From Bacteroidia bacterium (GTDB lineage Bacteria; Bacteroidota; Bacteroidia; DATLTG01), in NCBI GenBank assembly GCA_039924845.1, contig JBDTAC010000077.1, positions 1 through 61,530 of the forward strand: DNA of 61,530 bases. The letters run 5' to 3'. Position 1 is the stretch's first letter. The number at the start of each line of letters is the position of its first letter. The notes beneath the pieces were generated by a model. It searched no databases. It saw only the letters and a list, made by a program, of their open reading frames with translations, and had not been told where the DNA came from. Positions 2,544 through 59,536 of the stretch are shown one piece after another. The position numbers and the translations under genes are program-made.

Positions 2544-5267
2544 TTATTTAACCAATACTTTTTCAAACACCTTTTCTATAATTTGTTCTTGCTGTTGTTC
2601 GTGCATTCCGTGATAACCCGTTGCCGGACTTGCACTTGCAGCACGTGAAATTACTTTCAATGGCACTTCGCGGAAATTCATTGCGATGAATGTCCATGCG
2701 CCCATATTCTCTGGTTCTTCCTGCACCCACAACCATTCTTTTGCTTTGTTGTATTTCGCTAAAATGGCTTTTAATTGTGTTAAAGGTAACGGATAAATTT
2801 GTTCTATGCGTACCAATGCAATGGAATCTTCACCTTCTTTTTCTTGATGTTCCAACAAATCATAATAAATTTTTCCGGTACAAAAAACAATTTTTTTAAT
2901 GTTCGCTGCTTTCGCAGAAACATCATCTATTACTTCTTGAAAACCATTCGTAGTAAAATCTTTTAGAGAGGAAATACATTTTGGATGACGCAATAAACTT
3001 TTCGGAGTAAACACAATTAAAGGTTTACGGAAAGGGCGGTTTTGCTGTCTTCTCAAGAGATGAAACAAATTAGCCGGCGTGGTACAATTCGCCACTTGAA
3101 TATTGTATTCCGCCGAAAGTTGTAAAAAGCGTTCCATACGTCCGCTGGAATGTTCTGGTCCTTGCCCTTCGTAACCGTGTGGCAGCAACATTACCAAGCC
3201 ATTCATTCTACGCCACTTGTATTCTGCACAGGTTAAAAACTGATCCACAATAATTTGTGCGCCGTTAAAAAAATCTCCGAATTGCGCTTCCCAAATGGTG
3301 AGTCGATTTGGCGATGCAAACGCATACCCGTATTCAAAACCCAACACGCCGTATTCCGAAAGCAAGGAATTATAAACGGAGAATTTTTCTTGCGTATCGC
3401 TGATGTGATTTAATGGAATGTATTCTTCTTCCGAATCCTCAATTTTCACAACCGCATGACGGTGAGAAAAAGTTCCGCGTTCTACATCTTGTCCGCTCAA
3501 ACGCACGCCAATTCCTTCGTTTAACAAAGTCGCATACGCCATCAATTCGCCCATTCCCCAATCGTAACTGTCGTTATCAATCATTGCTTTCCTATCCTTA
3601 AACAGTTTCGCAATCTTGGTGAAAAACTTTTTTTCAGGAGGCAGTTGAACAATTTTATTGGCGAGGTCTAAAAATATTTTTTTATCTACTGCTGTGTCAG
3701 GAGATTTTTCAAAATCAGCAGGAGTCGCCATGCGCAAGCCTTTCCAAACACCTTCTAAGAAAGAAGTTACTTTTGCTTTAGCAGTTTGTTTGGCTTCATC
3801 TAATTTACTTTGCAAAAGATCCTTGAATTTTACCTCCATCTCTTTCGCTAAACTGGCTTCTATTTCGCCTTGCGCTTCTAATTCTTTACTATAAATTTCT
3901 CTCAAATTAGGATGTTGCGCAATTAGTTTATACAACAAAGGTTGCGTAAAACGTGGCTCATCGCCTTCGTTATGACCGTATTTACGATAACACAAAATGT
4001 CAATAAAAATATCTTTGTGAAATTTCTGACGGTATTCCATCGCCATTTGACAAACAAAAACTACCGCTTCTGCATCGTCTCCATTTACGTGAAACACAGG
4101 CGCATGTACCACTTTCGCCACATCTGTACAATATGTACTTGAGCGACCATCCAAATAATTGGTTGTAAATCCGATTTGATTGTTCACCACCAAATGAATG
4201 GTTCCGCCAGTTTTATACCCTTCCAATTGCGACATTTGCACCACTTCGTAAACGATGCCTTGTCCAGCAATAGCAGCATCTCCGTGAATTAAAATCGGAA
4301 TGATTTTGGAATTATTCCCGTTGTATAAATTATCAATTTTCGCGCGCACTATTCCTTCCACAACTGGATCTACCGCTTCTAAATGCGATGGATTGGGCGT
4401 TAAACTGAGGTGAATTTGTTTTCCTTTATTCGTAAATAAATCCGAAGAATAGCCATTGTGATACTTTACATCGCCTTCAAACAATGAATCTTCCGATTCT
4501 CTTCCTTCAAATTCCGTAAAAATATCTTTATAGGTTTTATTCAAAATATTTGCCAACACATTCAATCTTCCGCGATGCGACATTCCAATTACGAAACTGT
4601 CAATTCCGCTCTCTGCTCCTACTTCAATAACGGTATCTAAGGCAGGAATCAAGGCTTCTGCACCTTCTAAAGAAAAACGCTTTTGTCCGACAAATTTTGT
4701 TCCCAGAAAATTTTCAAAAACAACAGCTTGATTAATTTTATTGAGAATTGTTTTCTTTTCTTCGATGTTGAAATGCGGCGTATTTTTGCTCGATTCCATT
4801 TTCTCGCGCAGCCAATCTACAATTTCCGGAATGCGAATATACGTGTATTCCACGCCAATAGACGCGCAATACGTTTGTTCCAAATGGGCGATGATATCTT
4901 TCAATTTCGCAGACCCAATTCCGAGTTGTGAGCCGGCTTGAAAAACCGTTTCCAAATCTGCGTCAACAAGTCCGAAATTAGCGATGTCGAGCGTGGGCGA
5001 ATAATGCCTTCTTTCTCGAACAGGATTGGTTTTAGTAAATAAATGTCCGCGACTGCGATAGCCATTAATCAAGTTAATGACGTTAAATTCTTTCTTGAAA
5101 TTTTCTGGAACTTCGCCTGTATCTTCATAGTTTTTTCGTGCAAAATCAAAACCTTCGAAAAAATCTCGCCATGAAACATCAACCGAATTAACATCTTTCA
5201 AATACTGCTTGTACATTTCTTCCAAGGCGGAAGTATCAGCATTGCTCAAGTAGGAAAACTTATCCAT
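2544..5267 (-). CDS. sucA: 2-oxoglutarate dehydrogenase E1
   Basis: Thiamine-diphosphate-dependent decarboxylation of 2-oxoglutarate and transfer to the E2 lipoyl group. At 907 residues it is close to full family length (about 930). Visible landmarks are the N-terminal helix ([19 protein letters not shown]), [15 protein letters not shown] (cofactor region), [13 protein letters not shown] (ThDP/Mg region), [14 protein letters not shown], and the C-terminal transketolase-like part with [20 protein letters not shown]. First gene of the sucA-sucB unit. A TAACTTTG -7-like box lies 23-30 nt before the start. The frame is intact. Confidence 0.96.
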
Positions 5268-5456: not shown

Positions 5457-6305
5457 TTATTGGAGGAGATAAGCCTTCAAAGTTTTATGTATGTGAAATT
5501 CAATTTCATACTTCCATTCAGATTTTGCATTTTCGTGATAAATCCACGGTTTGCAAATTTTACAACCAGTAAATCCTTTATTTCTTAGCATTCCATAACT
5601 TGCTGTCTTTTTTTGACTAGTAAATGAGTGTTGGCATTTTATTATATGAATTATTTTACTTTTCGAGATGTAATAATCCCGAAAGGATTGCATTTTTGAA
5701 TGCCCGTCCATCAAAGTGTGACAACTTCTACAAAGAACAACAAGGTTTTCTAATGCGTGATTACCATCATTCGCTCTTCTTATTATATGATGTATATGGC
5801 AAGTATTTATTTTTTCATTTTTCCCACATCGCTGACATTGACCATTATCTCTATTGTAAACTAATTCTCTTCTTAAACTCCAATCCGTTGGATTTCGTCC
5901 TTTTTCAGTAGTTCTATATTTCTCCTCATTTCCCCAAAAGTCGCTATCGTTTTTTTCAATTTGCGGTATAGTGAAATCTCGATAGTGATTTAAATACGTG
6001 TCTATGCAATATGAGACTAAAGGTTCTGCAAGAGTATGAATTATTTTCAGTTTACTTTGTTTGTAATCAATAAGAGTGAAAAAATTGTCCGCTTTATATT
6101 GCTCATAGGACAAAAAGGTGAAGCCAATAAATGGATATTTTTGCTGCAAGTTTGTGGTTAATTGAGAATAGTATTCTGTATAAAAATCATCAATATTTTC
6201 AAATATTACTTTTCTAATTTTATTTTGTTTTCCATCTTCAATCTTTTTGTTGATGAAATAACCAATTACCAAAATTACTATTACGCAAAGTATAAATGTT
6301 CCCAC
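5457..6305 (-). CDS. Membrane-anchored HNH endonuclease-like protein
   Basis: A 282-residue protein. Residues 3-19 form one transmembrane segment (TFILCVIVILVIGYF), followed by a Lys/Glu-rich stretch, a central region of unknown fold, and an HNH domain at about 155-200. The domain shows CQRCG, CHIHHIIRRANDG, then LENLVVLCRSCH, so the His pair, the Asn and both zinc-binding Cys pairs are present. The C-terminal 70 residues contain another Cys-x2-Cys (TGCKICKPW). HNH domains cleave DNA in restriction, homing and defence proteins; the target here is unknown. It is an accessory gene lying between sucA and lpd, and its 5' and 3' flanks resemble those of the DUF4238 gene next to it. Confidence 0.7.
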   Translation of the reverse strand: MGTFILCVIVILVIGYFINKKIEDGKQNKIRKVIFENIDDFYTEYYSQLTTNLQQKYPFIGFTFLSYEQYKADNFFTLIDYKQSKLKIIHTLAEPLVSYCIDTYLNHYRDFTIPQIEKNDSDFWGNEEKYRTTEKGRNPTDWSLRRELVYNRDNGQCQRCGKNEKINTCHIHHIIRRANDGNHALENLVVLCRSCHTLMDGHSKMQSFRDYYISKSKIIHIIKCQHSFTSQKKTASYGMLRNKGFTGCKICKPWIYHENAKSEWKYEIEFHIHKTLKAYLLQ

Positions 6306-13783: not shown

Positions 13784-14932
13784 TTACGGTTTTTCGGATT
13801 GTTCTTTCAGCGTTTTTATAAAAGTAGAAATTTCACTTTCGGTTGTGAAAGAATGCAAACAGATTCGGAGTCTTTCTTTGTTTTTCGGAACGGTCGGACT
13901 TAAAATTGGGCGAACATCAAAACCTTTATTTTGTAAAGCGCTTGCTAATTTTTTTACAGATTGATTTCCGGGAACGGTAATGCACTGAATCGGCGCATCA
14001 TTCGTTGTTTTCTCAAATCCTTCCAAAGTTTTTATTTCAGAACAATACTGAAAAATTATTTTTTTGAGCTGCTCTTTTTCGGTGTTGGATTCAGCTAAAA
14101 AATCGTACGCACAATTTATGGAAATTAAGGCGTGATAAGGCAATGCGGTGGTATAAATAAAACTTCGTGCAAAATTAATTAAATAATTTCGGAGTGCATT
14201 ACTTCCTAAAACAATGGCTCCGTGGCATCCTAAAGCTTTTCCGAAGGTATGAACGCGTGCAAAAACTTTTTTTTCGAGTTGTAGTTCTGTTACTTTTCCT
14301 TCACCTTTTTTACCGAAAATGCCTGTTGCATGAGCTTCATCCACGATTAAATACGCTTCGTATTTTTCGCATAAGGCAGAAATTTCTTTTAATGGAGCAG
14401 CATCTCCATCCATCGAATAAATGGATTCAACGGCAACAAAAATAATTCCTTCGGCTGTTTTTAAACGTGCTTCTAAATGAAATAAATCATTGTGCATAAA
14501 GCGCAAAGCAGTTGTTTTAGAAAGTCGTATGCCATCGTGTACAGAAGCGTGAATCAGCTCGTCGTAAATAATCGTGCTCTCTTTTGGCAGCGATGAAAAC
14601 AAACCGATGTTGGCATCGTATCCCGAATTAAAAATCAATCCGGCTTCCGCCTGATGGTAATCCGCAATTTTTTTTTCTAAGATTTCTGCCATCTCCGAAT
14701 TGCCCGAAAGTAATCGAGAGCCAGTAGATCCGTTTGAAAAAATATTTTTTTCAGCAGCTTTTATTTTGTCTTGTAATTTCTCGGAACGCGCAAAACCCAA
14801 GTAATCATTGGAACAAAAATCAATTAAATTCTTTTTGACAGAAAGCGCACGAAGCGAATCGTTTTGTTGGCGGACTAAAAGAGCATCTGACAAAAAATGT
14901 TCTGTGTCAAGTTTCTTTTTAGAATCGTGCAT
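13784..14932 (-). CDS. bioF: 8-amino-7-oxononanoate synthase
   Basis: PLP-dependent condensation of pimeloyl thioester with alanine. The 382-residue protein shows NLIDFCSNDYLGFA, GSTGSRLLSGN (PLP phosphate and substrate loop), VDEAHATGIFG (PLP Asp and His) and the Schiff-base Lys in HTFGKALGCHG. It could in principle be a related alpha-oxoamine synthase, but the operon settles it. It starts 4 nt after the stop of the outer-membrane-like gene. Two PE cores lie inside the frame (14048-14068 and 14734-14754). Confidence 0.94.
   Translation of the reverse strand: MHDSKKKLDTEHFLSDALLVRQQNDSLRALSVKKNLIDFCSNDYLGFARSEKLQDKIKAAEKNIFSNGSTGSRLLSGNSEMAEILEKKIADYHQAEAGLIFNSGYDANIGLFSSLPKESTIIYDELIHASVHDGIRLSKTTALRFMHNDLFHLEARLKTAEGIIFVAVESIYSMDGDAAPLKEISALCEKYEAYLIVDEAHATGIFGKKGEGKVTELQLEKKVFARVHTFGKALGCHGAIVLGSNALRNYLINFARSFIYTTALPYHALISINCAYDFLAESNTEKEQLKKIIFQYCSEIKTLEGFEKTTNDAPIQCITVPGNQSVKKLASALQNKGFDVRPILSPTVPKNKERLRICLHSFTTESEISTFIKTLKEQSEKP
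14048..14068. repeat. PE dyad element inside bioF
   Basis: CTG, A5, TTA, T7, GA within the coding sequence; read on the coding strand it gives LKKIIFQ. Confidence 0.55.
14734..14754. repeat. PE dyad element inside bioF
   Basis: TTG, A6, TA, T7, CA within the coding sequence; it encodes EKNIFSN. Confidence 0.5.
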
Positions 14933-16962: not shown

Positions 16963-18012
16963 ATGATAAAAAAAATATTTTTTGCAGCACTGATTTTTTC
17001 TTTCGCTCAAATCTTGCACGCGCAAACAGACACGGTAAAAGCGACTACGCTTTTGCCGAATCAGGATGCTGAAAAAATGTACAATCAAGGTATCAGCGAT
17101 TTTGCCAATCGTAATTACAACGGCGCAATTGGCGATTTTACGCAAGCGGTTACGTTGAAACCGGATTTCGAAAAAGCATATTATAATCGTGGCATCACAA
17201 AAGCTGAAACCAAGGATTACAAAGGCGCGATGGATGATTACAACAAAGCGTTGATATTAAATGAAAACGATACAAACGCGTATTTCAGTCGCGCGCAAGT
17301 GAAAGATGCGCTGAACGACAAAAGCGCGGAAAGTGATTATTCCTCCGTTATTCGATTGAATCCAAAAAATGCGCAAGCGTATTATTTTAGAGGAGAAATA
17401 AAATTTCAGAATGCCGATTACAAAGGCGCCGTGGATGATTTTACCAAAGCCATTTCCAACAAACCAGATTATGCCTACGCTTATAATGATCGCGGCAGCG
17501 CAAAACGTCAATTGAACGATTATACAGGCGCAATTGCGGATTATAATAAAGCGTTGATTGTGAATCCGAAAATGGCTTTTTCCTTTAACAACCGTGGTAG
17601 CGCAAAACGTAAAGCCGGCGATTTAGACGGTGCTATTCAGGATTATTCCAGCGCTATTTCTTTGAAAAAAGACGATTACATTGCATACAATAATCGCGGT
17701 AGCGCAAAATTTGACAAAGGCGATTACCAAGGCGCAATAGACGATTTTACAAAAGCTTTGAGTTTAAATCCGGAATATGCGTATGCTTATAATAATAGAG
17801 CTTCCGCGAAATTTAAATTAAAAGATTACAAAGGTTCTGTAGACGATTGCAACGCAGCCATTCAGCTAAACGCGAAATATGGATATGCGTATTTGAATCG
17901 TGGAATAGCAAAAGAAATGTTGCGCGATGCAAGTGGCGCTTGCCAGGATTGGAGCACTGCCGCCACACTCGGCGTAGCAGCAGGAAAAGATTATTCACAA
18001 GGTTGTCAATAA
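16963..18012 (+). CDS. Secreted TPR-repeat protein
   Basis: A 349-residue protein with a cleavable signal (KKIFFAALIFSFAQILHAQ, cut after about 21). The rest is about nine 34-residue tetratricopeptide repeats from about 37 to 330, each with the pattern YNNRGSAKxxxGDYxGAIxDF. The units are very alike, which suggests recent internal duplication. TPR arrays bind partner proteins; this one acts in the periplasm or at the cell surface. It is 44 nt upstream of the PorE-like gene, with a PE element in the gap. The first codons (ATGATAAAAAAAATATTTTT) are a PE core. Confidence 0.8.
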   Translation: MIKKIFFAALIFSFAQILHAQTDTVKATTLLPNQDAEKMYNQGISDFANRNYNGAIGDFTQAVTLKPDFEKAYYNRGITKAETKDYKGAMDDYNKALILNENDTNAYFSRAQVKDALNDKSAESDYSSVIRLNPKNAQAYYFRGEIKFQNADYKGAVDDFTKAISNKPDYAYAYNDRGSAKRQLNDYTGAIADYNKALIVNPKMAFSFNNRGSAKRKAGDLDGAIQDYSSAISLKKDDYIAYNNRGSAKFDKGDYQGAIDDFTKALSLNPEYAYAYNNRASAKFKLKDYKGSVDDCNAAIQLNAKYGYAYLNRGIAKEMLRDASGACQDWSTAATLGVAAGKDYSQGCQ

Positions 18013-20133: not shown

Positions 20134-22248
20134 ATGAATCTAATCCATCGTGCGCCGCTGGTGCGTTTGCTTCTTCCTTTTATCGCCGGTATTAGTGCTG
20201 CCATTTATATGGAAGAATATTCCTTTTGGCTGAAAGTCCTTATGGCTGTGCTATTTTCCAGTATTGCCACTTTTACTTTTCATAAAAAGTCAGGCGCAAA
20301 TTATCGCTTCCGTTGGCTTTACGGAATGACACTTTCCTCCTTACTTTTTTTGGCTGCTTATCAAATAACGCTTGATAACACTACGAAATTTCGCTCAAGC
20401 TATTTTGGAAATTATATTTCTGGATCCGATTTTTGCTTGGTAAAAATAGAAGAGCCACTTGTTGAAAAAGAGAAATCAATTAAAATGATTGGCTCGGTTA
20501 TTTCTACTCGTCAAAATAAAAGTTGGAAAAGCACATCGGGAAAAGCATTGTTTTATCTACCTAAAAACGAACTTTCTGCCAAATTAAAGTACGGCGATTT
20601 AGTGCTCGTGAAAAATAATTTTTCAGAAATAAATACGCCACAAAATCCATCTGAATTTGATTACAAAAAATATTTAGCGCTTCACACTATTTATTTACAA
20701 AATCATATTTCTGCAGGAAATTTTATTTCAACAGGTATCAACAAAGGAAATTTTATTCGTGCTGCTGCCATTCGTACGCAAGCATATTGTCTTGCTGTTT
20801 TAAAAAAATACAATGTTCAAGGGCAAGAATTTGCTGTAACATCTGCACTTATTCTCGGTTATAAAAATGACATTGATACGGAAACTACCTCGGATTACGC
20901 GGCAGGCGGCGTGTTGCATGTCTTGTCGGTTTCTGGTTTACATGTTGGAATTATTTTTGTTGTGTTCAACTACTTGCTATTTTTTCTTGAAAAATTTCGA
21001 TACGGGAATTTTATAAAAGGGATTTTTCTTTTAGCAATGCTTTGGTTTTATGCAATGCTTACTGGGCTTTCACCATCGGTATTGCGGGCTTCCACGATGT
21101 TGAGTTTTGTAGTTATTGCCAATGCCTTTCATCGAAATAGTCTTATCTACAACACATTGGCAGCATCCGCATTTTTATTGCTGGCAATTAATCCGCACTT
21201 AATTGCCGAAGTTGGTTTTCAACTTTCGTATTTGGCAGTACTTGGCATCGTATCCATTTTCCCTTGGATATATCGTTTATGGAAAACAAAATACTGGCTT
21301 TTGGATAAAATTTGGTCCATTGTTGCTGTTTCTTTTGCGGCGCAGTTTATTACGTTTCCGCTTAGTATGTTTTATTTTCACCAGTTTCCAAATTATTTTT
21401 TAGTCTCCAACGTGGTAGTTATACCGCTCGCAACGCTCAGTATATACGCTGGCATTCTCCTTTTTATAACTGGGAAACTTGCATTTATCGCTGGATTTTT
21501 ATCAAAGATTTTAATTTTTTTAATAGGAGGATTAAATTATTTCGTGAAAGAAATTCGATTCACGCCTTATTCACTTACGCAAGGAATATCAATCAATGCA
21601 ACCGAAACGTGGATTATTTATTTTGGATTATTTTTTATGCTGATGTATATTTTTCGAAAAAAATTAAACTATTTATTTATCGCACTCGGAATTTTTATTT
21701 TACTGTTGACGATACAAGTTTTTGAACAAAAATCAGAACAAAATCAATCGCGATTTATCGTTTACAATGTTGCCAAAACGAGCGCTTGCGATTTCATCGT
21801 TGGAAAAAATAATTTTTTAATTGCCGATACTGCATTTTTAAACAATCCCAATGAAATTTCTTTACATATTACACCCAATTGGTTCGAAAAAGGAATTCTA
21901 TCGCATACACTGATCGGCGCAGATACAGGAGGAAATTATATTCAGAAAAACTTTTTTTTGAAAAATAAATGTATTCAATTTAGAACTAAAAAAATAATTT
22001 TTGTAAACGAGAAAATAAACCTTCCCAAAAAAATAATTTTTCAAAAGCTAAAAGTGGATTACGTCATTATTTCACACAATCCGAAAACGAATCTAAAAAC
22101 AATTTGTCAAATTTACGACTTCAAAAAAATAATTTTTGACGCATCCAATTCTAAATGGCAAATTGAAAAATGGCTGAAAGAGTGTAATGAACAAGGTATT
22201 GAAGCCTATTCTGTTGTTCATTCAGGAGCGTATGAAGAAACGATTTAG
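20134..22248 (+). CDS. comEC: ComEC/Rec2-family DNA-uptake channel protein
   Basis: A 704-residue polytopic membrane protein related to the inner-membrane channel for transforming DNA. It has N-terminal helices with a DUF4131-type soluble part (about 50-190), then the ComEC core beginning ALILGYKNDID and VLHVLSVSGLHVGIIF, with about eight further helices to residue 520. The C-terminal 180 residues lack an HxHxDH metallo-beta-lactamase motif, as in other Bacteroidota ComEC proteins. This tail is unusually rich in PE-derived KKIIF and KNNF peptides. It starts 19 nt after the PorE-like gene. Confidence 0.88.
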   Translation: MNLIHRAPLVRLLLPFIAGISAAIYMEEYSFWLKVLMAVLFSSIATFTFHKKSGANYRFRWLYGMTLSSLLFLAAYQITLDNTTKFRSSYFGNYISGSDFCLVKIEEPLVEKEKSIKMIGSVISTRQNKSWKSTSGKALFYLPKNELSAKLKYGDLVLVKNNFSEINTPQNPSEFDYKKYLALHTIYLQNHISAGNFISTGINKGNFIRAAAIRTQAYCLAVLKKYNVQGQEFAVTSALILGYKNDIDTETTSDYAAGGVLHVLSVSGLHVGIIFVVFNYLLFFLEKFRYGNFIKGIFLLAMLWFYAMLTGLSPSVLRASTMLSFVVIANAFHRNSLIYNTLAASAFLLLAINPHLIAEVGFQLSYLAVLGIVSIFPWIYRLWKTKYWLLDKIWSIVAVSFAAQFITFPLSMFYFHQFPNYFLVSNVVVIPLATLSIYAGILLFITGKLAFIAGFLSKILIFLIGGLNYFVKEIRFTPYSLTQGISINATETWIIYFGLFFMLMYIFRKKLNYLFIALGIFILLLTIQVFEQKSEQNQSRFIVYNVAKTSACDFIVGKNNFLIADTAFLNNPNEISLHITPNWFEKGILSHTLIGADTGGNYIQKNFFLKNKCIQFRTKKIIFVNEKINLPKKIIFQKLKVDYVIISHNPKTNLKTICQIYDFKKIIFDASNSKWQIEKWLKECNEQGIEAYSVVHSGAYEETI
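20608..20627. repeat. PE-type element inside comEC
   Basis: GTG, A5, TAA, T5, CAGA in the coding sequence (VKNNFSE). Confidence 0.45.
21985..22006. repeat. PE-type element inside comEC
   Basis: A7, TAA, T5 core, encoding TKKIIFVN. Further copies lie at 21801, 22024 and 22120. Confidence 0.45.
22024..22044. repeat. PE dyad element inside comEC
   Basis: CCC, A7, TAA, T5, CAA; encodes PKKIIFQ, only 18 nt after the preceding copy. Confidence 0.5.
22120..22140. repeat. PE dyad element inside comEC
   Basis: TTC, A7, TAA, T5, GA; encodes FKKIIFD. Confidence 0.5.
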
Positions 22249-22278: not shown

Positions 22279-22845
22279 ATGGAATTTAAAGTTGGTGATA
22301 AAATAAAATTTTTAAACGAGCAAGGCGGCGGCGTTATTTCCGAATTCTTGAATAAAAAAATCGTGAAAATAATTACCGACGACGGTTTTGAAATTCCTTA
22401 TTTTGTGAGCAAATTGGTATTAAACGAGCCTATTCCTCCAAAAATAGAATCACCCAAAATAGACCTTCCAAAAAATAATTTTTCAACAGCTATTTTTGAA
22501 AAAGACAAAAAAATAATTCCGAAAAAAAGTAAACCACGAATTGGAAAATCTGGCGTAGGGAATTGGGAAATTGATTTACACATCGAAGAATTAGTCGATT
22601 CTTCCAAAGGAATGACAAACGCACAAATTATCGTGATCCAGCTCAGCCACGTCCAAAAAAAATTAAACGAAGCGATGTGTTCCAATATCCGAAAAATAAT
22701 TTTCATACACGGCGTCGGCACGGGCCGTTTGAAACAGGAAATTCTCCAAATTCTTTCCGCTTACGATGGAATTACTTTTTACGATGCACCTTACAAACAT
22801 TACGGTTACGGTGCAACGGAGGTAATTATTCATCAACATGCTTGA
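22279..22845 (+). CDS. Smr-domain protein
   Basis: A 188-residue protein. The N-terminal 50 residues (EFKVGDKIKFLNEQGGGVIS) form a KOW/SH3-like beta-barrel as in DUF2027/MutS2-type proteins. After a Lys-rich linker comes a C-terminal Smr domain (about 100-188) with the LDxH-like EIDLHIEELV and the nucleic-acid-binding loop IHGVGTGRLKQEI. Smr domains nick DNA or cleave RNA. An ATG four codons upstream (22267) is also possible; I prefer 22279, 17 nt from a TATTTTTG box at 22254-22261. The frame includes PE cores at 22468 and 22690. Confidence 0.8.
   Translation: MEFKVGDKIKFLNEQGGGVISEFLNKKIVKIITDDGFEIPYFVSKLVLNEPIPPKIESPKIDLPKNNFSTAIFEKDKKIIPKKSKPRIGKSGVGNWEIDLHIEELVDSSKGMTNAQIIVIQLSHVQKKLNEAMCSNIRKIIFIHGVGTGRLKQEILQILSAYDGITFYDAPYKHYGYGATEVIIHQHA
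22468..22487. repeat. PE-type element inside the Smr gene
   Basis: CC, A6, TAA, T5, CAAC in the linker between the two domains; encodes PKNNFST. Confidence 0.45.
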
Positions 22846-27232: not shown

Positions 27233-28279
27233 TTATTTTTTGTTTGTATAATAGAGAATTAAATCTGTTTTTGTTTTAGTGGGAAAAATTATTTTTTCAG
27301 GAAATATAGGAGCTGCTATTCCATTTTTTATCTTTTTAGGTGAAACGATTATTCTCGCTTCATCCCAAAGGTTTTCTTTTATAAAACTATTTAATAATTG
27401 CGCCCCTCCTTCAACAATTACAGACAAAATATTTTTTTTGTTAAGATCCTTTAATACCTGATTCAAACTATTTTTTTTGAAATCTATCTTAATGAATTCT
27501 ATGTTTTTTGTTTCTTTTTTTTTGATAGAAGTAAACACCAAAGTTGGCGTAGAATCGTCTCTCAAAAAATAATTTTTCGGCACGCGTAAATCTTTATCGA
27601 TTAAAATTCTCAATGGATTTTTACCTTTTACAATTCTTGCAGAAAGCTTAGGATTATCAAGTAAAGCGGTATTTGTACCTACTAAAATACTTTGTTCTTC
27701 ACTACGCCATTGATGCGAAAGTTTCAACGAATTTTCATCACTTATTTGCAAAGGTTTTTGTCCGTCATTTAATGTTCTCTTTTTGTCAATAAAACCATCA
27801 CTCGTTTGCGCCCATTTTAAAATAATATACGGACGTTTTTGCTCGTGGAAAACAAAAAAACGTTTGTTCAAATCGCGACATTCATTTTCTAAAATACCCA
27901 CTTTTACATCGCAGCCATTTGTAATTAATTTCTGAATTCCTTTGCCTTTCACCAATTTATTTGGATCTGTATTTCCGATAATGACATACGGAATTTTATA
28001 TTTGAGAATCAAATCGGCGCAAGGCGGCGTTTTCCCGAAATGACTGCAAGGCTCCAGATTTACATAAAGTGTTGCGTGTTTTAAAAGTGTTTTATTTTTG
28101 ACAGAACGAATGGCATTTACTTCGGCATGCGCTTCGCCAAATTTTTCATGAAAACCTTCACCTATAATTTTATTTTCATGCACAATTACGCAGCCAACCA
28201 AAGGATTGGAAGCTGTTTTGCCGAAACCTTTTGCTGCCAATTCGAGGCAACGTTGCATGTATTTTTCGTCCGTGTTCAT
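27233..28279 (-). CDS. ribD: Bifunctional riboflavin deaminase/reductase
   Basis: Deaminates 2,5-diamino-6-ribosylamino-4-pyrimidinone phosphate, then reduces the ribose (riboflavin pathway). The 348-residue protein has the zinc cytidine-deaminase site H51-A-E53 and P-C78-x8-C87 ([12 protein letters not shown]) in the N-terminal domain, and a RibD C-terminal reductase domain from about 150 with [24 protein letters not shown] and [15 protein letters not shown]. No FMN riboswitch precedes it. PE cores lie inside at 27282 and 27562. It is divergent from prmC with a 60-nt gap. Confidence 0.93.
27562..27581. repeat. PE-type element inside ribD
   Basis: CTC, A6, TAA, T5, CGG in the reductase domain; coding strand gives PKNYFLR. 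Confidence 0.45.
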
Positions 28280-28339: not shown

Positions 28340-29203
28340 GTGAATTTGGCAAACAATACAATCGAATCGTTGGTTTCTTATTTTCGTACAGAATTAAAAA
28401 ATAGGTACGATAAAGAAGAAATTGAACAATTTATTATTATTTCTTTCAATGAAATTCTTGGCTTTTCACGAACGGATATTATCCTGAAAAAGTCAGATAG
28501 AATCAACGAATCCGATCTTGTTAAATTTAATTTTGTGGTTGATGAATTGAAAAAAAATTGTCCAATACAATATATTTTTGGACACACAGAATTTTACGGG
28601 ATGACTTTAAATGTCAATAAAAACGTATTGATTCCGCGACCTGAAACGGAAGAATTGGTACAATGGATTATCAATGAATGTCCGAAAAATAATTTTTCGA
28701 TTTTGGATATCGGAACCGGAAGCGGTTGTATTGCGATTGCGTTGAAAAAATATTTTTCCGAAGCCGATATTTTCGCAATGGATGTTTCTGCGGAAGCAAT
28801 TAAAATAGCGCAAGAAAATGCTAATTTAAATAATGTGAAAATTATTTTTTTGCAAACCGATATTTTGAATTTTAATTCAGAATATTTTCTAACAAAATTA
28901 GATGTGATTGTCAGCAATCCTCCCTATGTTTGCCTTTCTGAAAAAGTATTGATGAATGATAATGTGTTTAATTATGAACCGCATTTGGCTTTGTTTGTAG
29001 AAGACAATGATCCTTTACTATTTTATAAAAAAATTATCGCTTTTGCGAAAATAAATTTAAAACCTGCCGGAAAATTATTTTTTGAAATCAATGAATCACA
29101 AGGAAATAATTTGATTGATTTTTTAGAAATAAACGATGCGAAAAATATTATTTTGAAAAAAGATTTGAATGGAAAAAATCGTATGTTGTACTGTAATTTC
29201 TAA
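28340..29203 (+). CDS. prmC: Release factor glutamine methyltransferase
   Basis: Methylates the Gln of the GGQ motif of peptide chain release factors using SAM. The 287-residue protein has an N-terminal helical substrate domain, PIQYIFGHTEFYGMTL, VLIPRPETEELVQWI (SAM region), the glycine-rich LDIGTGSGCIAIAL and the catalytic N193-P-P-Y motif (VSNPPYV). It starts with GTG at 28340. It is 6 nt upstream of ligA. PE cores lie inside at 28681-28700 and 28746, the first directly before the SAM-binding glycine loop. Confidence 0.93.
   Translation: MNLANNTIESLVSYFRTELKNRYDKEEIEQFIIISFNEILGFSRTDIILKKSDRINESDLVKFNFVVDELKKNCPIQYIFGHTEFYGMTLNVNKNVLIPRPETEELVQWIINECPKNNFSILDIGTGSGCIAIALKKYFSEADIFAMDVSAEAIKIAQENANLNNVKIIFLQTDILNFNSEYFLTKLDVIVSNPPYVCLSEKVLMNDNVFNYEPHLALFVEDNDPLLFYKKIIAFAKINLKPAGKLFFEINESQGNNLIDFLEINDAKNIILKKDLNGKNRMLYCNF
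28681..28700. repeat. PE-type element inside prmC
   Basis: TCCG, A5, TAA, T5, CGA; encodes PKNNFSI. Confidence 0.45.
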
Positions 29204-37069: not shown

Positions 37070-38683
37070 ATGAACGAAATGGGTATTAGAGCCAAGGACG
37101 CTTCAGTGGCAAGTTTAGGCTTAAAAAATGTGTCGGCAGCTTATTGGAATTTAAGTCCGGCAGAATTGGTCGAAGAAACAATCCTTCGCGGAGAAGGCGT
37201 TTTAACAGACACTGGCGCGTTAGCAGTGGATACGGGCGAATTTACAGGACGCTCTCCAAAAGATAAATTTATTGTGTGCGATGACATTACGAAAGATACG
37301 GTTTGGTGGGGCGATATTAACCTCAAATTTGACGCCGATAAATTCGATAAACTCTACCATCGTGTAACAGCTTATCTTTCCGGAAAAGAAATTTATGTGC
37401 GCGATTCTTACGCTTGTGCGGATCCTCAATACCGTTTAAACATCCGTGTGGTAACGGAATTCCCATGGGCAAATTTATTCGCCAATAATTTATTTTTACG
37501 TCCAACTAAAGAAGAAATTTTAAATTTCAATCCGGAATGGACCATAATATGTGCCCCTGGATTTTTTGCAGATCCTGCTGTTGACGGAACACGCCAGCAC
37601 AATTTCGCGATTTTAAATTTGACGAAAAAAATCGTTTTGATAGGCGGAACTGCTTATACGGGCGAAATTAAAAAAGGAATTTTCTCTTTATTGAATTATT
37701 TGTTGCCGCAAGACAAAGGCGTTTTATCCATGCATTGCTCTGCTAACATTGGTAAAAAAGGTGATACTGCTTTATTTTTCGGTTTATCCGGAACAGGAAA
37801 AACAACGCTTTCCGCAGATCCTGAAAGAGGATTAATTGGCGACGACGAACACGGTTGGTCTAAAAATGGCGTGTTTAATTTTGAAGGTGGATGTTACGCG
37901 AAATGTGTGGATTTATCGAAAGAAAAAGAACCACAAATTTACGATGCCGTTAGATTCGGCACCATGCTCGAAAATGTAGAATTAATAGAAGGCACATCCA
38001 GCGTAGATTACGCCTGTATTTCGAAAACAGAAAACACAAGAGCTGCTTATCCAATTGAGCACATCGCAAATGCCGTAAAACCTTCTGTTGGTGGCATTCC
38101 GAAAAATATTTTTTTCCTTACAGCAGATGCATTCGGCGTATTGCCTCCTATTTCTAAATTAACAGAAGGACAAGCGATGTACCATTTTATTTCCGGATAT
38201 ACCGCAAAAGTAGCGGGAACGGAAGTGGGCATCAAAGAACCACAATTAACATTTTCAGCTTGTTTCGGAAAAGTTTTTTTACCCTTGCATCCTGCCAAAT
38301 ACGCAGAATTGCTCGGAAAAAAGATGAAAGAAAATAAAGTAAATGTATGGTTAGTTAATACAGGTTGGTCTGGCGGAGCATACGGCGTTGGAAGTCGTAT
38401 CAAATTAAGTTACACCAGATCTATTGTAACAGCTGCTTTAAATGGAGATTTAGACAAAGTGAAATATGAAACCTTGCCGATTTTCGGATTAAGCGTTCCT
38501 GTTTCTTGTCCGAACGTACCATCTGAAATTTTAAATCCAAGAAATACGTGGAAAGACAAAGATGCTTACGATACAAAAGCAAATTCGTTGGCAGTTTCTT
38601 TCGTTAAAAATTTCGAACAATATGCTGGCGCTGCGAATGCCGAAATTATGGCTGCAGCTCCGAAAGTAACTGAAAATGCATAA
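37070..38683 (+). CDS. pckA: ATP-dependent phosphoenolpyruvate carboxykinase
   Basis: Converts oxaloacetate to phosphoenolpyruvate with ATP (gluconeogenesis). The 537-residue protein has SPKDKFIV (substrate Arg region [10 protein letters not shown]), the kinase-1a P-loop [17 protein letters not shown], the Mg site [13 protein letters not shown] and the ATP-binding STRS-like YTRSIV near the C-terminus. Full length. A PE-type core lies inside at 38099 (PKNIFFL). Strong terminator directly after. Confidence 0.96.
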
Positions 38684-38746: not shown

Positions 38747-39463
38747 ATGAATTTATTTTACACGCCCGATATTTCAAGTGATCAATACACGCTCAGTGAG
38801 GCGGAATCCAAACATTGTATTCGTATTTTACGAATGAATATTGGCGATACGATGCACTTAACGGATGGAAAAGGTTCCTTTTACAAAGCTGAAATTACAG
38901 ATGCTTCTCCAAAAAAATGTGTCGTAAAAATTATCGAGAAAAAAACGGAAGAAAAAAGAGCCGATTTTAAATTACACATCGCCGTTGCTCCCACTAAAAA
39001 CATGGATCGCTTTGAATGGTTTCTCGAAAAAGCCACTGAAATTGGGATCGACGAGATTACTCCCATCATTTCAAAAAATTCTGAACGCACTGTTTTAAAA
39101 ACAGAAAGGTGTAATACAATTATTACTTCCGCCGTCAAACAATCGCTCACTCCTTGGCATCCGAAATTAAACGAAGTGGAAAATTTTTCTACTTTTATCA
39201 AAAAGACAACCAGTTTTTCTGGACAAAAATTAATGGCACATTGCGCAGAAGCTTCGAAAAAATATTTTTTTGAAGCCTGTAAAACGAAGGAAAATACATT
39301 GGTATTAATTGGTCCGGAAGGGGATTTTACAGCAGATGAAATAAACACAGCTTTGCAAAATGGTTGGCAAGCAGTTTCGCTTGGTAAAAGCAGGTTACGA
39401 ACAGAAACGGCGGCTCTCGTAGCATGTCATACAGTCAATTTAAAAAATGAAATTGGAACTTAA
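38747..39463 (+). CDS. rsmE: 16S rRNA m3U1498 methyltransferase
   Basis: SAM-dependent N3-methylation of U1498 of 16S rRNA. The 238-residue protein has an N-terminal PUA-like domain (YTLSEAESKHCIRILRMNIGD) and a SPOUT knot with LIGPEGDFTADEI and VSLGKSRLRTETAALVA, the RsmE signature. Its ATG lies three bases after the T-run of the pckA terminator, so a promoter must overlap that hairpin or readthrough occurs. A complete PE element with G/C stem lies inside the frame at 39251-39276, encoding SKKYFFEA. Confidence 0.93.
   Translation: MNLFYTPDISSDQYTLSEAESKHCIRILRMNIGDTMHLTDGKGSFYKAEITDASPKKCVVKIIEKKTEEKRADFKLHIAVAPTKNMDRFEWFLEKATEIGIDEITPIISKNSERTVLKTERCNTIITSAVKQSLTPWHPKLNEVENFSTFIKKTTSFSGQKLMAHCAEASKKYFFEACKTKENTLVLIGPEGDFTADEINTALQNGWQAVSLGKSRLRTETAALVACHTVNLKNEIGT
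39251..39276. repeat. PE dyad element inside rsmE with complementary stem
   Basis: GCTTC (39251-39255) and GAAGC (39272-39276) pair around A6-TA-T7. This terminator-like version of the element lies in the middle of a coding sequence. Confidence 0.65.
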
Positions 39464-39470
39464 AAGGCAC

Positions 39471-39491
39471 ATCAAAAAAATAATTTTTTGA
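39471..39491. repeat. PE dyad element between rsmE and the DUF4159 gene
   Basis: ATC, A7, TAA, T6, GA, ending four bases before the next start codon. Confidence 0.55.
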
Positions 39492-39494
39492 GCA

Positions 39495-40175
39495 ATGAAA
39501 AAAATAATTTTCCTGTCGGCTATTTTTATGTGTTTCGCTTTTTCAGGAAATGAAAATACCTATTCGTTTCAAATTGCTTTGCTCAAATACGGCGGTGGCG
39601 GCGATTGGTATGCGAATCTGAAAACTTCTTTACCAAATCTCATCGCATTTTGCAATAAGAATTTAAACATGAATATCAATCCTGAACAAGCAATTGTTGA
39701 TGTTGGAAGTCCGGATATTTTCAATTATCCTTTTGTGCACATGACAGGGCACGGCAATTGGTCGCTCACTCCGCAAGAGGCGCAAAACCTGCGTAATTAT
39801 CTTGTTGGTGGCGGTTTTTTGCACATTGATGATAATTTTGGATTAGATCCTTACGTGCGTCCGCAATTAAAAAAGGTTTTTCCGGAATTGGATTTGATAT
39901 TACTACCTTTTTCATTTCCTATTTATCATCAGAAATATGAATTCCCACATGGGATGCCTAAAATTCATGAACACGATGGCGGTCCACCAAAAGGTTACGG
40001 ACTTATTTTTAAAGGACGCTTGGTATGTTTTTATTCCTTCGATACCGATTTAGGAAATGGTTGGGAGAGTTATGAAATCTATCACGATCCGCCTGAGTTG
40101 CATGAAAAAGCATTGGAAATGGGCGCCAATTTATTGGAATATGTGTTGATGGGAAAAGGCGATAAAAATCAGTAA
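39495..40175 (+). CDS. DUF4159 family exported protein
   Basis: A 226-residue protein with a short signal peptide (KKIIFLSAIFMCFAFSG) encoded partly by a PE core. The body fits DUF4159, a flavodoxin-like/glutamine-amidotransferase-like fold: KYGGGGDWYANLKTSLPNLI, YPFVHMTGHGNWSLTPQEAQ, LRNYLVGGGFLHIDDNFG, then the C-terminal LGNGWESYEIYHDPPELHEK. Function unknown. It converges with parC. Confidence 0.8.
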   Translation: MKKIIFLSAIFMCFAFSGNENTYSFQIALLKYGGGGDWYANLKTSLPNLIAFCNKNLNMNINPEQAIVDVGSPDIFNYPFVHMTGHGNWSLTPQEAQNLRNYLVGGGFLHIDDNFGLDPYVRPQLKKVFPELDLILLPFSFPIYHQKYEFPHGMPKIHEHDGGPPKGYGLIFKGRLVCFYSFDTDLGNGWESYEIYHDPPELHEKALEMGANLLEYVLMGKGDKNQ

Positions 40176-50125: not shown

Positions 50126-50611
50126 ATGAATACGGAAAATATTTTTTTGGACGAAGAAGATTTTGATGAGTTGAAAAACAGCGCGTCGAAACTTTTTTCA
50201 CTCGACAGAAAACTTCCATTTGAAGTGCCCGCTGATTATTTTGATGAATTACCGATGTTGATTCAGGAAAGGTGTGCGCAAGAAAATACACATAAAATTT
50301 CAGTGCTCGAAAAAATTATTTTTTTGATGCGCCGAAAATATATTGCGTTCGGAATACTTATTTTATTGATGAGTGGAGGATATTTTTTCTATCTCTCTAA
50401 AAATGGAGTACAAAAATCTGCACCCTCTACAGACGAAATTACAACTGCTTTAACGGATAATTTATCGGTGGATGATGAAACATTACTCATTGAATCTATG
50501 CCTGATAATAAAGTTGCAAGCACTCAAAAAACAGATAACGATCAACCCATCGTCAACTATTTAATTGATAACGATGTGGACGTAAATACCATTACTAACG
50601 CTACAAATTAA
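50126..50611 (+). CDS. Single-pass membrane protein, candidate anti-sigma partner
   Basis: A 161-residue protein with an acidic cytosolic N-terminus (about 1-75) that contains FEVPADYFDELPMLIQER, one transmembrane helix (about 73-92, YIAFGILILLMSGGYFFYL) and a short periplasmic tail. The topology (N-in, one helix) and position after an ECF sigma gene fit an anti-sigma factor or sensor, although no zinc-binding HxxxCxxC is present. A PE element with TCG/GA ends lies inside the frame at 50307-50327 just before the helix. Confidence 0.6.
   Translation: MNTENIFLDEEDFDELKNSASKLFSLDRKLPFEVPADYFDELPMLIQERCAQENTHKISVLEKIIFLMRRKYIAFGILILLMSGGYFFYLSKNGVQKSAPSTDEITTALTDNLSVDDETLLIESMPDNKVASTQKTDNDQPIVNYLIDNDVDVNTITNATN
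50307..50327. repeat. PE dyad element inside the membrane-protein gene
   Basis: TCG, A6, TTA, T7, GA; encodes EKIIFLM at the membrane boundary. Confidence 0.55.
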
Positions 50612-52825: not shown

Positions 52826-52846
52826 TTCAAAAAAATAATTTTTCAA
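52826..52846. repeat. PE dyad element before the hydrolase gene
   Basis: TTC, A7, TAA, T5, CAA, 29 nt upstream of the chosen start. Confidence 0.6.
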
Positions 52847-59155: not shown

Positions 59156-59536
59156 ATGAAAAAAGATATACAAAATCGTAAAGATATAGAACTGCTCATC
59201 AATCATTTTTACGAAGAAGTGCGAAAGGACGAACTCATCGGATTTATTTTTAATGATATTGCAAGTGTAAATTGGGAAAAGCATTTACCCATTATGTACG
59301 ATTTCTGGGAAGGGTTATTATTCGGGAATAGCAATTACAAAGGCAATCCAATGCTCGTACATATACAGCTCGACAAAAAAATAATGTTATTACCCGAGCA
59401 TTTTGAACGCTGGAAAAAATTATTTTTTCAATCCCTCGATTCTCTTTTTCAAGGAGAAAAAACAGAAGAAACAAAATCAAAAGCCAATTCGATTGCTTCC
59501 GTAATGCTTCACAAAGTGGAAAATATGCGCGGTTGA
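59156..59536 (+). CDS. Group III truncated haemoglobin
   Basis: A 126-residue single-domain haem protein. Family marks are LINHFYEEVRKDELIGFIF, the HLP-FW segment (H43-L-P, then YDFWEGLLFG) and the proximal haem ligand H82 in LLPEHFERWKKLFF. Group III globins probably bind small ligands in redox or NO chemistry; the physiological role is open. A PE core lies inside at 59411-59431, right after the proximal His, and the TGA stop is formed by another. Confidence 0.88.
   Translation: MKKDIQNRKDIELLINHFYEEVRKDELIGFIFNDIASVNWEKHLPIMYDFWEGLLFGNSNYKGNPMLVHIQLDKKIMLLPEHFERWKKLFFQSLDSLFQGEKTEETKSKANSIASVMLHKVENMRG
59411..59431. repeat. PE dyad element inside the haemoglobin gene
   Basis: TGG, A6, TTA, T6, CAA; encodes WKKLFFQ next to the haem-ligand helix. 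Confidence 0.55.

Follow-up and report, generated by a model that had tools for sequence, protein, structure and literature searches.

Genome-spanning words that rewrite proteins are known from very few lineages, namely the uptake sequences of Pasteurellaceae (USS) and Neisseriaceae (DUS) and the cyanobacterial HIP1. Rickettsia palindromic elements are inserts of about 100–150 bp. USS occur about once per kb, arise by mutation and are depleted in new segments and in constrained coding sequences (PMC7811141). In USS, a second AT segment is centred 12 positions from the first, and gaps are seen in 24% of USS alignments (PMC1626085). A mismatch-repair model exists for HIP1, the function of which is unresolved (PMC4390886), and a role in nucleoid structure has been proposed for A-tract periodicity (PMC3940949). 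Natural transformation takes place in Riemerella in the absence of pilus homologues (PMC8459023), and for R. columbina a preference for self DNA has been described, no signal having been identified (PMC7965970).

We analyzed a stretch of 61,530 nucleotides (the window), which is contig 77 of a 2.66-Mb assembly that is 99% complete and in which no SSU rRNA was found. An earlier note had described in it an A/T-rich palindromic element lying inside reading frames, and had offered two options: a DNA signal selected in its own right, or an element inserted in frame like the Rickettsia palindromic elements. The pattern A5W0-6T5 occurs 60 times in the window (28 within ORFs, 25 outside and 7 across a border), as compared with 0 occurrences of T5W0-6A5. 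Assembly-wide, AAAAAWN{0,2}WTTTTT gave 3753 matches (overlaps counted), and the reversed pattern gave 211. A further 645 Bacteroidota genomes, drawn from 114 other families, served as comparison; they include no genus, family or order relative and are nearest at the class level. In them the count never exceeded 545, and the ratio of pattern to control was at most about 6.5 wherever counts were appreciable. The four runner-up genomes contained scattered A/T runs with neither the core grammar nor the flank pattern described below. No exact TTCAAAAAAATAATTTTTCAAA was found in viral contigs, and our search of the literature on iterated words in Bacteroidota returned no precedent. Among the genomes searched, the element is private to this lineage.

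The detailed analysis was performed on 1.43 of the 2.66 Mb, a sample with no long duplicated contigs. It contains 1358 cores of 13–16 bp, i.e. 0.95 per kb, which extrapolates to a total of about 2,500 copies in 2.66 Mb, or about one per kb. With CDS taken as non-overlapping ORFs called mechanically, and therefore with approximate gene borders, 559 copies were located in CDS, 461 outside and 136 were mixed, versus 26, 13 and 3 respectively for the reversed order. The core is a near-palindrome of the form S-A5-7-(TA/TAA/TTA/TTAA)-T5-7-S, usually bounded by G or C and variable in length (13–16 bp). The best word is the commonest 21-mer, TTCAAAAAAATAATTTTTCAA, found 76 times in the 1.43 Mb; it contains no GATC or CGATCG.

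The pattern extends well beyond the core. Counting from the centre, G/C is found at 8 bp, T (left) and A (right) at 9–10, a G/C-rich segment at 12–14, and an AT-rich one at 16–21, followed around 31 and 44 by AT waves that are less pronounced. This arrangement is dyad-symmetric, with AT blocks at ±18, ±31 and ±44, and is common to in-gene and intergenic copies. It is retained by isolated copies having no second core within 110 bp, which keep AT blocks at 5, 18, 31 and 44 bp on each side, while 4717 in-gene and 893 intergenic non-element AT runs of similar length, used as controls, have flat flanks. Neighbouring copies are preferentially spaced by 23, 35–36, 48 and 61 bp, in steps of about 12.5 bp. 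Longer gaps between copies are near-exponential (CV 1.05).

The host genes listed in the earlier note were confirmed by Pfam or by position. The bioF-like gene carries 2 copies, comEC 5, the Smr gene 1, RibD 3, PrmC 4, the globin gene 1 and the anti-sigma-like ORF, which has no Pfam match, 2. PEPCK and several genes starting with MKKIIF are further hosts. The peptides KKIIF, KNNF, KKYFF and KKLFF are read as had been stated, together with EKIIF, QKNNF and KNIFF. The main features are collected in Table 1. Copies over gene starts (MKKIIF, MKKIFF or MKKYFF) are located at 16968, 23182, 36208, 39498, 47063, 48450 and 50622 of the window; in genes longer than 600 bp, 111 of the 564 in-gene copies lie at most 60 bp from the ORF start. 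The window also holds an HNH endonuclease gene (5457–6305). No Rfam match was obtained in the window at the gathering threshold.

Table 1. Copies of the element in the window and the rsmE host gene. Positions are those of the 61,530-nt window; the strand is given where it was noted.
Feature	Position	Strand	Sequence or peptide	Remarks
bioF-like gene (PLP-dependent), copy	14051–14065		KKIIF	Pfam Aminotran_1_2
bioF-like gene, copy	14737–14751		EKNIFS	frame 1
comEC, copy	20611–20623		KNNFS	comEC by Pfam PF03772 (Competence)
comEC, copy	21804–21818		GKNNFL	frame 2
comEC, copy	21988–22002		KKIIF	
comEC, copy	22027–22041		KKIIF	
comEC, copy	22123–22137		KKIIF	
Smr-domain gene, copy	22470–22483		PKNNFS	
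ribD, copy	27284–27297		EKIIF	
ribD, copy	27564–27577		KNYFL	
prmC, copy	28685–28697		KNNFS	
prmC, copy	28745–28757		KKYFS	
pckA, copy	38102–38115		KNIFF	peptide conserved among orthologues, pre-existing
rsmE, 16S rRNA m3U1498 methyltransferase, host gene	38747–39463	+		Pfam PF04452 + PF20260
rsmE, copy	39251–39276		KKYFF	core A6TAT7 at 39257–39271; flanks GCTTCG / GAAGCC; ungapped versus most orthologues
Intergenic copy, directly 3' of rsmE	39474–39489		AAAAAAATAATTTTTT	
Copy opening the next ORF after rsmE	39498–39511		MKKIIF	
Anti-sigma-like ORF, copy	50310–50325		EKIIFL	
Commonest extended consensus	52829–52843		QKNNFS	TTC-A7TAAT5-CAA
Globin gene, copy	59414–59428		KKLFF	

The copy in rsmE reads GCTTCGAAAAAATATTTTTTTGAAGC and lies within an intact ORF that matches Pfam Methyltrans_RNA (E=8.8e-42). 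A repeat search of the window reported it as a 15-nt palindrome (93%). The earlier note had singled it out as a complete stem closed by G/C pairs. The complementary flanks are indeed present, but they are not special, such stems being what unlinked flanks yield by chance. At least 5 complementary flank pairs were found in 3 of 677 in-gene copies, against 4.1 expected when flanks were re-paired between copies, and with one slip permitted the same re-pairing gave 12 of 677 observed versus 7.0 expected. Long in-gene stems thus occur at chance frequency, give or take a few copies, and the complete stem of rsmE is therefore not evidence for a structured RNA.

The same picture was obtained for the copies as a whole. 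The composition of the left flank mirrors that of the right, but the two are uncorrelated, pairs being about as frequent as expected; the profile of oriented copies is strand-symmetric. Real copies located in genes or in tandem or divergent spacers were not predicted to form more stable RNA folds than chimeras joining one copy's left flank to another's right flank, and a small excess of strong predicted folds over chimeras was seen in convergent spacers. It is very unlikely that the copies are bidirectional intrinsic terminators, with the in-gene copies as by-products. Their density peaks just past stop codons and in short convergent gaps, as terminators would, and in about 30 of 510 intergenic copies, where 3.5 are expected, the flanks contain 6 or more complementary pairs. 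Most copies, however, have no stem beyond the A/T arms, the pattern is strand-symmetric, and divergent regions, ORFs and the intergenic spacers of the S10/spc operon harbour copies as well. An efficient terminator is hard to reconcile with the copies in the ribosomal-operon spacers. The terminator function was rejected for most copies on the basis of the chimera folds, the strand symmetry and these spacers. About 6% of the intergenic copies are true hairpins, and this minority may double as true terminators.

In order to evaluate the effect of the element on codons and proteins, in-gene copies were compared with shuffled genes. All three codon frames are used (287, 289 and 190 copies). In 1019 genes the strict core was observed 467 times, as compared with 163 ± 9 when synonymous codons were shuffled within each gene and 9 when the order of codons was shuffled. 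Across tests the in-gene excess was 2–3-fold over synonymous shuffles and 10–50-fold over codon-order shuffles. Synonymous sites, a point raised in the earlier note, thus favour the element, and the excess over both shuffles shows that codon choice and amino acids have both been changed. At the protein level, KNNFS occurs 68 times versus 0.5 expected from composition, and its reverse SFNNK once. KNNFS amounts to 17.5 per 100,000 residues versus 0 in low-GC Bacteroidia loci, and KIIF- and KxFF-type peptides to 22–25 per 100,000 versus 0 in 154,000 residues from low-GC Bacteroidia. The peptides KNNFS, KKIIF and KKYFF are almost private to this genome. The chance that mutation or codon usage in a low-GC genome yields the element as a by-product is practically negligible. 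The genome does have 35% GC, with AAA and TTT as its dominant Lys and Phe codons; but the reversed order is about 20-fold rarer, both shuffles leave an excess, equally AT-rich relatives have no such element and the flank pattern is specific to it. This explanation was rejected on the rarity of the reversed order, the shuffles and the flank controls.

We then asked how the in-gene copies relate to orthologous proteins. In other genomes, almost all of them Bacteroidota, 93 loci were used, and 64 elements were testable, with 20 or more residues aligned to either side. For 48 of the 64, one or more orthologues align across the element without a gap; for only 7 are 3 or more residues missing from every orthologue. 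The identity at the element is 0.28 versus 0.48 at control positions, indicating that the element occupies tolerant positions. The rsmE element is ungapped in 86% of 90 matched stretches, and in most orthologues it stands opposite unrelated residues such as KQSLK, KKELK and EKIEL; one example aligns KLMAHCAEASKKYFFEACKTKENTLV opposite KYIAHCEENEKQSLKTSYKTGNNALI. The comparison by which the earlier note had proposed to tell insertions of about 7 codons from replacements thus points to substitution for most elements. Its counter-case, orthologues carrying the same peptides at the same places, does not apply to most of them, given the low identity, and holds for a minority that use a pre-existing conserved peptide, such as KNIFF in pckA.

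These alignments leave little room for a mobile element that inserts in frame in the manner of the Rickettsia palindromic elements, which we regard as extremely unlikely. In its favour, orthologues are more often gapped at elements (21%) than at control positions (8%), and at 7 elements every orthologue lacks 3 or more residues. It is opposed by the 48 ungapped elements and the clean substitution in rsmE, by the shortness of the word and its variable core length, and by the case of USS, for which gaps have been reported in a similar proportion (24%; PMC1626085) even though USS are not inserted. Insertion of this type was rejected for most copies because of the ungapped alignments. To judge from these comparisons, in-gene copies arose by point substitution at tolerant positions, the amino-acid sequence paying the cost.

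Together, the use of three frames, the excess at both synonymous and amino-acid level and the flank pattern common to copies in and between genes strongly support the first option of the earlier note, a DNA signal selected or driven in its own right, whereas the second is unsupported. We consider it highly probable that the element is a genome-wide signal acting at the DNA level, as opposed to an RNA element, an inserted element or a by-product.

The copies are unevenly distributed. They are densest in short spacers of the convergent and tandem kinds (7–12 per kb). Divergent spacers longer than 60 bp have about 3.6 per kb, and ORFs about 0.4–0.6 per kb, depending on the core definition. Most ORFs of the ribosomal-protein region (contig 24) are free of copies, and short intra-operon spacers carry them. 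Just upstream of rpsL on the same contig, five elements spaced by 66, 62, 62 and 37 bp are found at 4828–5070. Another array, of six elements spaced by 33, 55, 33, 33 and 89 bp, is located at 38813–39056 of contig 68; it adjoins an element-free stretch containing, as judged by eye, a methylase fragment and two recombinase-like ORFs. Contig 14 has only 2 copies in 18.7 kb versus about 18 expected. It is a polyhydroxybutyrate (PHB) cluster with two PhaC synthases, thiolases, MaoC, SDR, acetoacetate decarboxylase and patatin, and is probably a recent acquisition.

What the signal is for can be approached from this distribution. The best reading, which we hold tentatively and with less than even confidence, is a self-recognition signal of the uptake type, spread by molecular drive. 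It is based on the frequency of about one copy per kb, on the near-exponential gaps and on a density in CDS far below that in non-coding DNA, as well as on ribosomal-protein ORFs that are almost empty while their spacers are occupied and on the poverty of the PHB cluster. Genes for ComEC and DprA are present, which is also in its favour, although both proteins are also widespread among bacteria with no known competence. In the proposed mechanism, the double-stranded element would be recognised by a protein, and DNA bearing the word would be preferentially bound or taken up and then recombined. Natural transformation would proceed without type IV pili, and the word would accumulate by molecular drive, as USS do in Haemophilus, matching alleles spreading wherever protein function tolerates the word. 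The AT blocks 12–13 bp apart might ease bending or kinking at the receptor. Drive would explain why a protein can be altered for the sake of a single site among about 2,500 redundant ones. As evidence against uptake, neither a PilB/PilT-type ATPase (PF00437) nor a secretin (PF00263) was matched in the 99%-complete assembly, so that the known USS/DUS machine is absent; uptake by type IV pili was rejected on this ground. Moreover, known uptake sequences are not palindromes.

The 12.5-bp lattice, the AT waves reaching 44 bp and the two-fold symmetry are accounted for no less well by a dimeric architectural protein that wraps DNA or oligomerises. The element could accordingly be the binding site of an abundant homodimeric nucleoid-associated protein, its sites being selected for chromosome organisation, an explanation that we find possible, if doubtful. 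Such a protein would grip the narrow minor grooves of the A/T arms, bend or wrap about 90 bp and contact its neighbours every 12.5 bp or so. Besides the symmetric core and flanks, the blocks kept by isolated copies and the neighbour spacings are what it would predict, and so is the presence of copies in convergent, tandem and divergent spacers and in ribosomal operons. On the other hand, long-range spacing is near-exponential, nothing similar exists in the 645 related genomes, and selection of protein-changing strength on about 2,500 redundant sites is hard to sustain without drive. The genome has no histone-fold match (PF00808), and its three HU genes single out no candidate. A histone-fold protein was rejected as the binder for lack of a PF00808 match.

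The element could also be a highly iterated palindrome of the HIP1 type, upheld by biased DNA repair or methylation and not by binding. Like HIP1, it is a lineage-specific, hyper-abundant palindromic word that also lies in genes (PMC4390886). This seems improbable to us, because the word, at about 21 bp and with GC/AT structure reaching 44 bp to either side, exceeds the length expected of a methyltransferase or mismatch-repair word, and because the core varies in length (13–16 bp).

If it is an uptake signal, the element might be, in a claim that we word still more cautiously, the first one in Bacteroidota: an AT-cored near-palindrome, independent of pili, driven to about 2,500 sites, with hundreds of proteins reshaped as a result. 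The word itself could then be used as bait for its receptor. Should it instead be a chromatin site, sequence-specific nucleoid organisation would be strong enough to change proteins, and a lineage-private, sequence-specific chromatin site with a lattice of about 12.5 bp would be equally new. Either way, the element adds a third kind to the few known genome-spanning words, in a phylum where natural transformation works without pilus homologues. Peptides of the KKIIF/KNNFS type in such genomes are imposed by DNA and are not to be taken as protein motifs.

Compared with known systems, the element resembles the Rickettsia palindromic elements in being palindromic and inside reading frames, but it measures 21–45 bp and is substituted in place. 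With intrinsic terminators it shares an A-run, a symmetric centre, a T-run and enrichment at gene ends, whereas about 94% of its intergenic copies have no paired stem and copies lie within genes and ribosomal operons. Its regularly spaced AT blocks around a symmetric core recall phased A-tracts and nucleoid-protein sites; the known A-tract periodicity, however, is diffuse and of 10–11 bp, and the one found here is of about 12.5 bp, anchored on a near-palindromic word and confined to one genome. HIP1 of cyanobacteria (GCGATCGC) is likewise a palindrome hyper-abundant across a lineage, but it is 8 bp long, GC-rich and tied to methyltransferases, as opposed to about 21 bp, AT-rich, variable in its core and with phased flanks. 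Unlike USS and DUS, the element is near-palindromic, with an AT core and AT blocks on both sides, in a genome that has no pilus ATPase or secretin and thus no type IV pilus machine. As in USS and DUS, its copies occur about once per kb, many of them in ORFs on which they impose peptides; they arise by point substitution and are sparse in constrained, conserved genes and in segments that appear to be newly acquired, and USS themselves consist of a core and two AT segments 12 bp apart.
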